Assembly: GCA_030609325.1 (NCBI GenBank)
Contig: JAUWCL010000023.1
Coordinates: 1-55,088, forward strand
Direction of reading: 5' to 3'
DNA from: Candidatus Krumholzibacteriota bacterium
GTDB taxonomy: Bacteria; Krumholzibacteriota; Krumholzibacteriia; Krumholzibacteriales; Krumholzibacteriaceae
DNA: 55,088 nucleotides
Part shown: positions 1 to 46,452 of the stretch, in pieces
Position numbering within the stretch: position 1 is the stretch's first letter
Layout of the letters: each line of letters opens with the position of its first letter
Notes under the pieces: generated by a model
The model's database searches: none
The model's input: the letters and a program-made list of their open reading frames with translations, nothing else
Told to the model about the DNA's origin: nothing
Translations under genes and position numbers: made by a program

Positions 1-268
1 CCATCATACCGGTGCCCTCCGGCTGCCCATATCATATCCTGTCGATAATTCCCCAGCTCAATTATCCCATAACAATTTGAATTATTTGATGGAAGCCGGC
101 TTTTGAGGCATTATTCGCGGTTGAGGCTCCCTGTTTGTAAGACAGGCGTTCTGACATTCATAATTCTTACAGGCCACTAATTCTGCTGCATTGCAACAGC
201 TTAACTTCCCCCGTTCACTGTGCTGGGCCTTGCGGCCTCAGCAAAACGGGATTGAGCGATCAGGGGAA
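1..268. other. Non-coding left edge; possible start of an outgoing gene
   Basis: No complete gene is visible here, downstream of the helicase stop at 269. At the extreme left edge two ATG codons read leftward at positions 7 and 4, preceded by GGAGGG with 8 bases spacing, so a minus-strand gene may begin here and leave the window; two codons are too few to identify it. Positions 129-147 hold a perfect hairpin identical in form to a tRNA-Val(TAC) anticodon arm (see findings). A GC-rich imperfect hairpin at about 220-240 has no T-run, so I do not call it a terminator. Confidence 0.35.
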
Positions 269-25751: not shown

Positions 25752-26135
25752 AAAGAACGGCGGAGCGGACTAGTAAGCCGAGTTCTGTCCCGGTCCGCAA
25801 GCGGACCGGTGATGATCATTTATCTGGGGCCGGCGTTTCCGCGGGCCACGATCGACCTACCCGAGAGTCAAACGAAGCGGGCCGCTTCTCCTCTTCTATT
25901 TGGTCTTTCTCCGGGTGGGGTTTACCTGGCTGCCGCCGTCGCCGACAGCACCGGTGAGCTCTTACCTCACCATTTCACCCTTACCGCCGGCAAGCCGGCG
26001 GCGGTATATTTTCTGTGGCACTTTCCTTGGGGTCGCCCCCACTGGGAGTTACCCAGCACCCTGCCCTGTGGAGCTCGGACTTTCCTCGAACACCCCGAAG
26101 GGCGCCCGCGATCATCCCGTCCTCTCCGCCGTCCA
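25752..26135 (-). ncRNA. rnpB: RNase P RNA (bacterial type A)
   Basis: The catalytic RNA of RNase P, which matures tRNA 5' ends. Minus strand shows GAGGAAAGTCC near the 5' end (universal CR-I/P4 strand), ACAGGGCAGGGTGCTGGGTA, the CCCAAGGAAAGTGCCACAGA block, and at the 3' end ACAGAACTCGGCTTA. The ends form a long P1 helix: GGACGGCGGAGAGGAC (26119-26134) pairs with GTCCGCTCCGCCGTTC (25755-25770) with two mismatches or wobbles. Exact ends are inferred from P1 and the promoter. It lies between rnhA and recJ. Confidence 0.95.
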
Positions 26136-26204: not shown

Positions 26205-26852
26205 CTACTGGGTCTCTACCGCTTCGTCAAGGATCTCGTTGGCCAGCCTGTCGGCCGCCGCATTGCGGGCACGCGGGACGTGCTCCCAAACGCATTTATC
26301 GAATCCCGCCGCGAGTTCCCGGACCTGCCCGGCGAGGACGGCGAGGTTCTCGTTCCTGATCTTGTACTCGCCGTTCATCTGCTTGACAACGAGTTCGCTG
26401 TCCATCCGGATTGTGACGCTGGGCACGCCGAAATCGGCCGCCAGCTCAAGGGCGAGAATGCAGGCGCTGTACTCGGCGACGTTGTTCGTCGCCTTCCCCA
26501 ACCGCTTCGCCCTGGAAGTCAGCTCCGTCCCTTCCGTATCGTAAGCGACAACGGCCGCGGATGCGGGGCCGGGATTCCCTCTCGAAGCCCCGTCCGCGTG
26601 GACGATCAGCTCCGAGATCGTCATACCGGTGATATCGACCGTCTTCGCCGCGGTGCCGACCGATACGGGTTCGGAGGGAGGCGCAGGTTCAGGAGAGCCG
26701 GTGCTGATCTCTTTTCCCAGCTCAACAGCCATCTCCCGCAGCGCATCCTCCGCTTCGGCCTTCGCGAGGAAGCCGGACTGCTCCCACGCGTTATCGAGCG
26801 GCAGTCCACCCGCGAGCAGCTCGAGAAGCTTCTTGAGGCTGTTCTTTTTCAT
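26205..26852 (-). CDS. Ribonuclease HI family protein with N-terminal extension
   Basis: 215 residues from ATG 26852, which overlaps the upstream stop by one base (TGATG). Residues ~80-215 are an RNase HI-like fold: HADGASRGNPGPASAAVV (D87), NNVAEYSACILAL (E127), RMDSELVVKQMNGEY (D151) and RNAAADRLANE (D201), the complete catalytic set. This is the short cell-type RNase HI related to B. subtilis YpdQ/archaeal forms. The first ~75 residues are a small helical domain (MKKNSLKKLLELLAGGLPLD) plus a Pro/Ser linker that I do not recognise; it is not the DRBM-like hybrid-binding domain. Role: removal of RNA from RNA-DNA hybrids. Confidence 0.88.
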   Translation of the reverse strand: MKKNSLKKLLELLAGGLPLDNAWEQSGFLAKAEAEDALREMAVELGKEISTGSPEPAPPSEPVSVGTAAKTVDITGMTISELIVHADGASRGNPGPASAAVVAYDTEGTELTSRAKRLGKATNNVAEYSACILALELAADFGVPSVTIRMDSELVVKQMNGEYKIRNENLAVLAGQVRELAAGFDKCVWEHVPRARNAAADRLANEILDEAVETQ

Positions 26853-27583
26853 CAGGATTTCGGTTCCTGGTCGGCCGGAAAATAGATCAGAATCCGTCCG
26901 CATGCCTCGCAGGTCAATATGGTGTCGTTGCGCCTGACCTCGTGCACTTGCTGCGGCGGAACCCGGCTGAAGCACCCCTGGCATACGGCGCCTATGAGGT
27001 TCGCCACGCCGGAATCCCCTTTGACCTTCAGTATTCGCTCGTAGCGCTTTCGTATCCTCTCGGAGAGCAGGGGCAGGGTCCCGGCCCTCTCCTTTTCCAG
27101 CCTGGCAAGCGTCGCCTTCGCCTCCTCGATCTTGTCCTCCCAATCTTTCTTCGCGGCGAGCTTGGTATCCTTCTCGGTGTTGATCTTCTCTGTGGCGGCG
27201 GCTACTTCTTTCTTCTCGGCCTCGAGCAGGGTGAGAATCTCGAGGCCGCGGTTCTCGTGCCCTTCGATCTTATTCTCGAGGAACTGGATCTCGGAAGTCT
27301 TCGCCGCGTACTCCTTGTTATCCTTCACGATCAGCAGCTCGTTCTTCTTCGTGACGATAGCCGCGCGGTCGTCCTTGACATCGCCGTCGAGACGGATCTC
27401 CTCCTTCTTGAGCTTCTCCAGCTCAGCCTCTGCCTCGGTGTACCGCTCGTCCATGTCGCTCACTTCCTTCTCGAGTTTCCTGATTGTGAGCGGAGCCGTC
27501 TCGAGGATCCTCTTGTTCTCCTTCATCTGGAGATCTTTCTGTGCCATCTGGATGAGAAACTGGATGTCGCTTTCAACCGTCAT
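26852..27583 (-). CDS. Coiled-coil C4 zinc-ribbon protein (DUF164/CdsZ family)
   Basis: 243 residues from ATG 27583; the longer frame to GTG 27661 runs through a terminator hairpin and is rejected. Residues ~10-185 form a long coiled coil rich in Lys/Glu, followed by a zinc ribbon with CQGC (201-204) and CEAC (225-228). The family is widespread; a chlamydial member binds RNA/DNA, but the cellular role in most bacteria is unclear. It is translationally coupled to the RNase HI gene and follows a structured leader RNA, so an RNA-linked function is a reasonable inference. Confidence 0.9.
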   Translation of the reverse strand: MTVESDIQFLIQMAQKDLQMKENKRILETAPLTIRKLEKEVSDMDERYTEAEAELEKLKKEEIRLDGDVKDDRAAIVTKKNELLIVKDNKEYAAKTSEIQFLENKIEGHENRGLEILTLLEAEKKEVAAATEKINTEKDTKLAAKKDWEDKIEEAKATLARLEKERAGTLPLLSERIRKRYERILKVKGDSGVANLIGAVCQGCFSRVPPQQVHEVRRNDTILTCEACGRILIYFPADQEPKS

Positions 27584-27607
27584 AGTCAATCTGTACCTCT
27601 CGTCGCT

Positions 27608-27636
27608 AAAAAAAATGCTTCCCGAACGGGAAGCAT
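27608..27636 (-). terminator. Perfect intrinsic terminator before the zinc-ribbon gene
   Basis: Minus strand ATGCTTCCCG pairs perfectly with CGGGAAGCAT around a two-base minimal loop (TT) and is followed by an eight-T run. It lies 25 bases upstream of the ATG at 27583, the position expected for transcription attenuation. Confidence 0.92.
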
Positions 27637-27745
27637 CTGATAAGGCATGCTGATATCGCACCCGGGCTTGCCCGGTCGCGGAGCGATGGGATTGTTGTAA
27701 GCTCTCTCCATACCTGTCGTTTCGTTTTCAAAGATCAGACAATAA
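27608..27745 (-). ncRNA. Candidate structured leader RNA or small RNA
   Basis: About 138 nt between a promoter-like site and a perfect terminator, 25 bases before the zinc-ribbon gene. Nested helices read from the sequence: P1 GTCTGAT (27734-27740) with ATCAGAT (27635-27641); P2 GGTATG (27709-27714) with CATGCC (27644-27649); P3 ATCGC (27683-27687) with GCGAT (27655-27659); P4 CCGGGC/GCCCGG with loop AA (27662-27675). Large purine-rich internal loops (GAAAACGAAACGACA; GAGAGAGCTTACAACAATCC) remain unpaired. I do not recognise a known family. It could be a cis-acting attenuator or a free small RNA. Confidence 0.55.
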
Positions 27746-27751
27746 GCGAGC

Positions 27752-27780
27752 ATGCTATAGAAATACCGCAGGGCGGTCAA
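27752..27780 (-). promoter_or_regulatory. Promoter of the leader RNA/zinc-ribbon operon
   Basis: Minus strand TTGACC (27775-27780) and, at 17 bases spacing, TAGCAT (27752-27757); TATAGC at 15 bases spacing is an alternative -10. Start expected near 27745, giving a ~160-base leader before the coding region. Confidence 0.55.
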
Positions 27781-27807: not shown

Positions 27808-28914
27808 TCAATGATACATCGGAACAGCCGTCTCTTCGACAGCGGCAGCCGCCAGACCTGTCGTCTCGTACGAGAACTCGGTGATCGACCAGGTCGCCCC
27901 GCCGTCCGTCGTGGCCAGCACGACCGCGTGTACGACCGAGCGGCCCTCGATCATTTCCTCCCTGCCTGTGCCCGCTATCCAGCCGCGCGATAAATCAACG
28001 AAATGTACGGCGCGAAGGTCGACGATCCTCTCGTCCACTGGCGTTACGTCAGTCCAGGTCTCCCCGCCGTCGACGGTGCGCAGTATCGAGGTCTTGCCTA
28101 CGGCGAAGACCGACATCGCGTCGTGGATAAAGAACTCGCGTACCGTGGCCGTCTCCATCTGCGTCGTCCAGGTCCGCCCGCCGTCCGTGGTCTTCATGAC
28201 GACGGCGCCGCCCGCCCATCCGGTCTGCTTGTCGTTGAACTCGATGGTGACGATCCCCCTAAGGATCGAGGCGTTCGAGCCCGGCACGGCCGACCAGGAC
28301 ATGCCGCCGTCTTCGGTAACGTATACGAGCTCGGGATCGGAGTCTGTCCACTTGCTTCCCATCAGGTATGCGTTGTCTTCGTCGATAACGGTCATCGACC
28401 AGGCGCCGCGGTACTCGACTATGGGCAGCCAATTGTTTACCCAGCCGCTCCCACCGTCCTCTGTCACGAAGACACCGTGATACCCGAGAATGAACCCCTC
28501 GGTGTCGCTGACAAACCTGACCTCGAACAGGTCGTCCATCTGGGGATACCCGGTGAATACTTGCCTCTCCCAGGTATACCCGCCGTTATCGGAAACGTAG
28601 AGTTTGCCCTCGCGGCCGACGACCCAGCCGTTCTGCGTGTCGGAGAAGTAGACTCCCCTGATGTCGAGCTCATCGATCGTCACGGGCGTCCAGGTCTCTC
28701 CTCCGTCCTCGGTCACGACGGCCGTACCGAGCCGCCCCACGATCCAGCCGTGGTCGGCGTCGGCGAAGTAGACGTCGTTCGCCCCGAGCAGCTCGTTCTT
28801 GATCTCCAGTGGAGGCTCGGGAGCGACAGACCTGTGCTCCGAGCAGGAATGTGTCTCGAAAAGTATGAATGCGATAATCATGAGGGCGAGTAGGAAGCTG
28901 CGCCTGAGTTGCAT
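27808..28914 (-). CDS. Ycf48-like beta-propeller lipoprotein
   Basis: 368 residues from ATG 28914 (the frame reaches 28935). The N-terminus is a signal peptide (LRRSFLLALMIIAFILF) ending at a cysteine in THSC, a loose lipobox. The rest is at least six repeats of about 45-50 residues of the type GWIVGRLGTAVVTEDGGETW, the BNR/Ycf48 propeller pattern. Ycf48 helps assemble photosystem II in phototrophs, but similar proteins are common in non-phototrophs with unknown ligands; nothing here suggests photosynthesis. Predicted to be secreted or lipid-anchored. Confidence 0.85.
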   Translation of the reverse strand: MQLRRSFLLALMIIAFILFETHSCSEHRSVAPEPPLEIKNELLGANDVYFADADHGWIVGRLGTAVVTEDGGETWTPVTIDELDIRGVYFSDTQNGWVVGREGKLYVSDNGGYTWERQVFTGYPQMDDLFEVRFVSDTEGFILGYHGVFVTEDGGSGWVNNWLPIVEYRGAWSMTVIDEDNAYLMGSKWTDSDPELVYVTEDGGMSWSAVPGSNASILRGIVTIEFNDKQTGWAGGAVVMKTTDGGRTWTTQMETATVREFFIHDAMSVFAVGKTSILRTVDGGETWTDVTPVDERIVDLRAVHFVDLSRGWIAGTGREEMIEGRSVVHAVVLATTDGGATWSITEFSYETTGLAAAAVEETAVPMYH

Positions 28915-29128
28915 TTTTGACCCCCGCCGTTGCAAAGTAAAGCTGTGTATTACATCGGCTTATAGCCGTCCGGTGTCGGCCGGAAAGCCCAAGCTCTTTT
29001 ATATCAGCGAGATAGCTTCCCACACCGTGTGCCGCTCCGCCATAGCGAGTCCGCGGGCGGGAAACAACGGGAAATCCCACGCAATCTTCAGGCCGGATAA
29101 AGAGTCCTGACCGGGCCTTATATAGTAA

Positions 29129-31473: not shown

Positions 31474-31548
31474 TGGTGGGCCCAACAGGATTTGAACCTG
31501 TGACCGACCGGTTATGAGCCGGGGGCTCTACCGCTGAGCTATGGGCCC
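31474..31548 (-). tRNA. tRNA with anticodon CAT (elongator Met or Ile2)
   Basis: 75 nt with encoded CCA. Acceptor GGGCCCA pairs with TGGGCCC; D arm GCTCAGCGGTAGAGC; anticodon stem CCGG/CCGG around CTCATAA; T arm ACAGG-TTCAAAT-CCTGT. CAT with this acceptor does not look like initiator tRNA, since position 1 pairs normally. It may be elongator Met or the Ile2 species whose C34 becomes lysidine; sequence alone does not settle this. It lies 13 bases after rpoD and is probably co-transcribed with it. Confidence 0.93.
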
Positions 31549-46354: not shown

Positions 46355-46452
46355 TGGCGGGAACGTGTGGGAATCGAACCCACCCCGGATGGTTTTAGCA
46401 CCCGGCAGAAGGATTTGAAGTCCTCGGGGCCCACCAGAACCCATCCATTCCC
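46355..46452 (-). tRNA. selC: tRNA-Sec (selenocysteine, anticodon TCA)
   Basis: 98 nt with encoded CCA, longer than ordinary tRNAs. Anticodon arm AGGACTTCAAATCCT with the TCA anticodon in CTTCAAA, the sequence found in bacterial SelC. Acceptor GGGAATG pairs with CGTTCCC; extended D arm (GGGTTCTGGTGGGCCC); long variable arm TGCCGGGTGCTAAAACCATCCGG-type hairpin; T arm GTGGG-TTCGATT-CCCAC. The anticodon reads UGA, so the genome should make selenoproteins with SelA, SelB and SelD coded elsewhere. Confidence 0.93.

Follow-up and report, generated by a model that had tools for sequence, protein, structure and literature searches.

The amino-acid attenuators trpL, hisL and pheL place a leader open reading frame (ORF), and then a terminator, ahead of an operon. 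At the E. coli ampC attenuator, termination is thought to be decided by ribosome loading on the leader. The E. coli pyrBI operon carries a short leader ORF, pyrL, before and across an intrinsic terminator, and tight coupling across pyrL is required to prevent terminator formation, according to the account of Roland 1988 given in PMC5021804. Here we describe a promoter, a short ORF and a terminator in a comparable order ahead of a DUF164 gene cluster in a Candidatus Krumholzibacteriota bacterium. The window, that is, the whole stretch of DNA analysed, comprises 55,088 nucleotides (GCA_030609325.1, contig JAUWCL010000023.1), and the locus occupies its minus strand as follows.

27752..27780, minus strand: sigma-70-type promoter TTGACC-17-TAGCAT (hexamers TTGACC 27780-27775 and TAGCAT 27757-27752, 17 nt apart), with spacing and TTGAC core the same in 27/27 relatives
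27712..27744, minus strand: 5' untranslated part of the leader, placed by the promoter and by the pyrimidine profile of relatives
27586..27711, minus strand: leader ORF of 41 codons (MERAYNNPIAPRPGKPGCDISMPYQMLPVREAFFLATRGTD*), spanning the terminator, with a frame that stays open as far as the terminator in 24/26 relatives
27613..27638, minus strand: intrinsic terminator (the putative attenuator), AGATGCTTCCC-GTTC-GGGAAGCATTT plus a T-rich tail, with compensatory changes in 5/9 pairs
26852..27583, minus strand: DUF164 gene (C4-type zinc ribbon, CT398-like coiled coil), the gene that would be gated
26205..26870, minus strand: RNase HI gene (RVT_3 / RNase_H), second gene of the operon
25758..26127, minus strand: RNase P RNA gene (rnpB), downstream, with a separate promoter-like site (26192-26164)

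To place this arrangement in a wider context, DUF164 orthologues were gathered from 58 related genomes and then from the whole family, order and class, and the DNA upstream of them was examined. The comparison rests on 27 orthologues from families f1, f2 and f7 with enough readable upstream DNA, the window's genome included and one genome (G042) left out for its masked bases. In all 27, spread over three families of one class, TTGACN-17/18-TANNNT is followed by a leader 97-129 nt long, then by an intrinsic terminator and by DUF164. What the original prediction had called a promoter-like site is a sigma-70-type promoter that recurs 5' of DUF164 in each of these 27 orthologues, and the search for a conserved element upstream of DUF164 in related genomes, which it had proposed, found the whole promoter-leader-terminator unit in all of them. 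The perfect terminator that it had reported is likewise present at 27638-27613, as a stem of 11 pairs (one of them G-U) followed by a T run, where shuffles of the region would yield 0.3 terminators by chance. The promoter and the terminator are real and deeply conserved.

The gene had been placed 25 bases past the terminator, and we find its start about 25-30 nt beyond, at ATG 27583 or TTG 27589. Among the 27 relatives the distance from the terminator stem to the conserved DUF164 N-terminus is 34-58 nt, which is too short for a second promoter, so every DUF164 transcript must cross the terminator. The element is missing from families f3-f6 and f8, in which a tRNA-Met(CAU), often with a tRNA-Val, precedes DUF164, sometimes with a terminator of its own; it is therefore confined to three families (f1, f2 and f7) of the class.

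Transcription is predicted to start at about 27744, as judged from the promoter position. In the relatives the leader RNA is pyrimidine-rich over about 15 nt at its start and purine-rich thereafter; the enrichment is strong over the ~10 nt that follow the -10 box and reaches 82% at +6..10. An A-rich tract lies 5' of the -35 box in nearly all relatives, and also at the promoter of the window. Together, the A-rich tract and the pyrimidine-rich start (27730-27755 and relatives) suggest a strong promoter whose activity may respond to nucleotide levels. Leaders of the same genus (27608-27745, L003 and L004) share 98.6% identity, versus about 90% for the flanking genes, a degree of conservation that includes the 5' untranslated part and exceeds what an open frame alone would need. 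Between genera, no leader sequence could be aligned outside the terminator, and k-mer counts for a shared leader motif stayed within the null.

The genes downstream are those that had been named originally, a DUF164 zinc ribbon, RNase HI and rnpB, and the relatives of the DUF164 protein in the PDB are CT398 (4ilo) and HP0958 (3na7). The rnpB gene lies downstream of DUF164 in 16 of the 20 relative loci searched. Since it has a good promoter-like site of its own, an attenuator at this position would mainly concern DUF164 and RNase HI.

By their sequence, the leaders look as if they were translated. In the window, the leader ORF ends 2 nt ahead of the DUF164 ATG and overlaps the alternative TTG start. 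An ATG frame open to the terminator is found in 24 of 26 leaders versus 10.5±2.3 in dinucleotide shuffles, and control DNA was flat, with counts of 9 for the reverse complements and 10 for upstream DNA; the two leaders that have no qualifying frame are G015 and G022. Because the pyrimidine/purine composition of the leaders might bias this null, shuffling was repeated with the body alone (11.4±2.4) and in 48-nt blocks (13.3±2.4), and the observed 24 exceeded the maximum of 1000 shuffles under each null. Counting early ATGs gave the same picture (38/48 open versus 21.5±3.1). The lineages are related, so these nulls are somewhat generous, and versions with one sequence per genus, in which 16-17 of 18 genera have an open frame versus 7.9±2.1, address most of that.

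The start position was also computed and is clustered. An ATG lies at +28..39 from the predicted transcription start in 13/19 lineages versus 4.7±1.8 (maximum 11 in 2000 shuffles), a bin that was picked after the profile had been seen; taking the fullest of all bins instead gave 15 observed versus at most 13 in shuffles. As a control, the tRNA-to-terminator spacers of the other families gave 2/9 versus 2.3. The frame of about 22-44 codons reaches the terminator, in contrast to the minimal leader frame of ampC. In about 16/27 leaders the frame closes between -5 and +11 nt relative to the stem foot, so that many relatives come closer to the pattern of the pyrE attenuator, whose ORF ends at the base of the stem. 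In the remaining leaders, that of the window included, the frame runs past the hairpin, and several of these frames end close to the gene start.

The predicted peptides are not conserved. We found no peptide similarity between genera, and within-genus substitutions, judged by eye, showed no clear pattern of synonymous or codon bias, so that the frame is kept in openness and length and not in sequence. In family f2, one-base indels switch the frame between close relatives and each frame is still open. No conserved regulatory codons were seen in the leaders, which have a modest excess of K, N, P and R only. A Cys-Arg motif that by eye looked conserved in several candidate peptides was dropped as cysteine is not enriched. 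A Shine-Dalgarno energy of -4 kcal/mol is reached at 11/27 leader starts, versus 35% of control positions and 25/27 gene starts; in most relatives the leader start does not surpass control positions, and no Shine-Dalgarno sequence precedes the leader ATG of the window.

A promoter, a short frame and a terminator ahead of the cluster suggest that its genes are probably on only when a ribosome follows close behind the polymerase. Our best reading, which we consider probable, is a translation-coupled transcription attenuator that would work like E. coli pyrBI. Transcription would begin at the strong dedicated promoter, and a ribosome would initiate at the ATG some 33 nt from the 5' end of the transcript and read the short frame. 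If it kept pace with RNA polymerase, it would cover the emerging 5' arm of the hairpin, either by stopping at the foot or by reading through. With the hairpin blocked, the polymerase would proceed into DUF164 and RNase HI, possibly also into rnpB; if translation failed or lagged, the hairpin would form and transcription would terminate. Where the ORF crosses the terminator and reaches the gene start, as it does in the window, DUF164 translation may be coupled to it as well. The promoter, the terminator, their conservation, the open frame and its start position were established computationally, and from these we infer leader translation, the blocking of the hairpin by a ribosome and the nature of the signal; since no codon or peptide is conserved, the signal would be general ribosome-polymerase coupling.

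The likeness to pyrBI lies in the short ORF before and across an intrinsic terminator, in the close-following ribosome that prevents the hairpin (proposed here), in the dispensability of an alternative antiterminator, and in an ORF that can end beside the first gene. The genes and the phylum differ and there is no homology, the leader Shine-Dalgarno sequences are weak here, and any nucleotide sensing by the DUF164 leader is conjectural. Unlike trpL, hisL and pheL, the DUF164 leader has no run of a single codon, no conserved codons and no competing antiterminator helix. Against an attenuator of the pyrBI kind stand the weak leader Shine-Dalgarno sequences, the frame-shifting indels of family f2, the two leaders that have no qualifying frame and the lack of a clear codon pattern among within-genus substitutions. 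We also entertain a more far-reaching form of the idea, in which the peptide is irrelevant and the promoter, start position, open frame and terminator are kept as a sequence-independent gauge of coupling, to which control by DUF164 at the stem may add. Such a gauge would set the expression of an operon for RNA processing, comprising DUF164, RNase HI and perhaps RNase P RNA, in three uncultured families, and in this full form we regard the proposal as rather improbable.

The original prediction had described the region as a structured RNA with four nested helices, P1-P4, arranged as in riboswitches or attenuators. Its location before a terminator and a gene and the one stable hairpin in the window's genus speak for a folded leader of this sort. 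However, P1 opens with a 5' strand whose first bases belong to the -10 hexamer; as this precedes the predicted start at ~27744, the strand should be absent from the RNA. In the other two species of the genus P1 is disrupted as well, with a changed 5' strand and an intact supposed partner, so that the helix fails in two of three sequences. For P2-P4 we took positions from the minimum-energy fold, since none had been given; the helices besides P1 show hardly any variation and no two-sided change within the genus. A consensus fold of 26 leaders recovered the terminator as its sole helix, with two-sided changes in 5/9 pairs, and neither this fold nor the genus comparison revealed compensatory changes in helices outside the terminator. 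Folding of the whole region, terminator included, is modestly better than that of shuffles (z -1.70), the leader of the window without the terminator gives z -1.09, and across 27 leaders without the terminator no excess stability was seen (mean z -0.05±0.18, standard error). Pairing of the leaders with the 5' arm of the terminator is slightly below that in shuffles (mean z +0.5) and hence gives no sign of an antiterminator. A search of Rfam at gathering and relaxed thresholds matched the leader to no family. The sole match to 6S RNA (RF00013) in the genome is elsewhere (C55:32365-32550), and Phe_leader (RF01859) scored 20.8 bits against a cut-off of 55, its resemblance being limited to the terminator hairpin. 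With no covariation outside the terminator, no excess stability, no antiterminator and no Rfam family, a structured aptamer or structured small RNA is not supported, and the riboswitch or folded-leader reading is already largely refuted; we give it almost no chance. The comparison with attenuators survives through the position of the leader and the conserved promoter-terminator pair, while that with riboswitches does not, and the original prediction was thus partly right: the promoter, the terminator and their conservation are real, the structured RNA is not. Of the two outcomes that it had named as refuting, helices without covariation were observed, whereas the absence of an element upstream of DUF164 was not.

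An RNA could also be made here for its own sake. A free small RNA, roughly 130 nt long and ending at the terminator, with the downstream genes merely using read-through, would fit the conserved strong promoter and terminator, the tightly held leader length and the high identity of the leader within the genus relative to its flanking genes. It would not account for open frames and a start position beyond chance or for a leader that is always attached to DUF164, and the leaders share neither motif nor structure and cannot be aligned between genera outside the terminator, so we consider it unlikely. Another alternative is a terminator of fixed, partial efficiency that holds operon output constant, with an open frame that protects the leader or is incidental. 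It agrees with the absence of an antiterminator and with the weak Shine-Dalgarno sequences, but leaves the surplus of open frames and the clustering of the ATG in need of another reason, and we regard it as quite doubtful. Whether the terminator is a generic one was addressed by a strict pattern search of the family genomes. GCTTCC-N3-8-GGAAGC-N-TTTT is present in 10/20 genomes of family f1 and at the DUF164 leader locus only, so that within this family the inner stem is kept in sequence and not just in pairing. A plain terminator would not explain this conservation, and a protein might recognise the stem. DUF164 itself, as an autoregulator, or another RNA-binding protein would be a candidate reader of the stem, and the DUF164 relative HP0958 has been reported to bind flaA mRNA (PMC5947703). 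Yet the stem differs in other families (ACCTCC, GCTTCTC) and the open frames would be left unexplained, which makes control by a protein very unlikely.

A translation-coupled attenuator at this locus would add a new site to a known type of control and makes a prediction that can be tested, and the literature searched contained no report of such attenuation of a DUF164 cluster. Zinc-ribbon proteins of the DUF164 type occur widely and are little understood; RNA binding has been reported for HP0958, which belongs to them. If true, such attenuation, by tying the DUF164-RNase HI-rnpB cluster to active translation, would give an initial hint of the conditions under which DUF164 proteins are required. 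RNase HI has R-loops as its substrate, and uncoupling of polymerase from ribosome favours their formation. The locus also illustrates that comparison of relatives can unmask a structured-RNA look-alike, a promoter-leader-terminator unit seen in one genome, as a probable translated attenuator.

A gene for a YCF48/BNR-repeat protein (27808-28935, same strand) lies just upstream of the promoter, and YCF48/BNR-like coding sequence is visible 5' of the leader in many relatives. The leader stands where sister families carry the tRNA-Met(CAU)/tRNA-Val unit; in the window, tRNA-Met(CAU) is found 4 kb away at 31474-31548, and in the sister families it is directly 5' of DUF164 (L107-L126). Further along, the window holds a selenocysteine tRNA gene (RF01852) at 46355-46452, which implies selenoprotein synthesis in this lineage.
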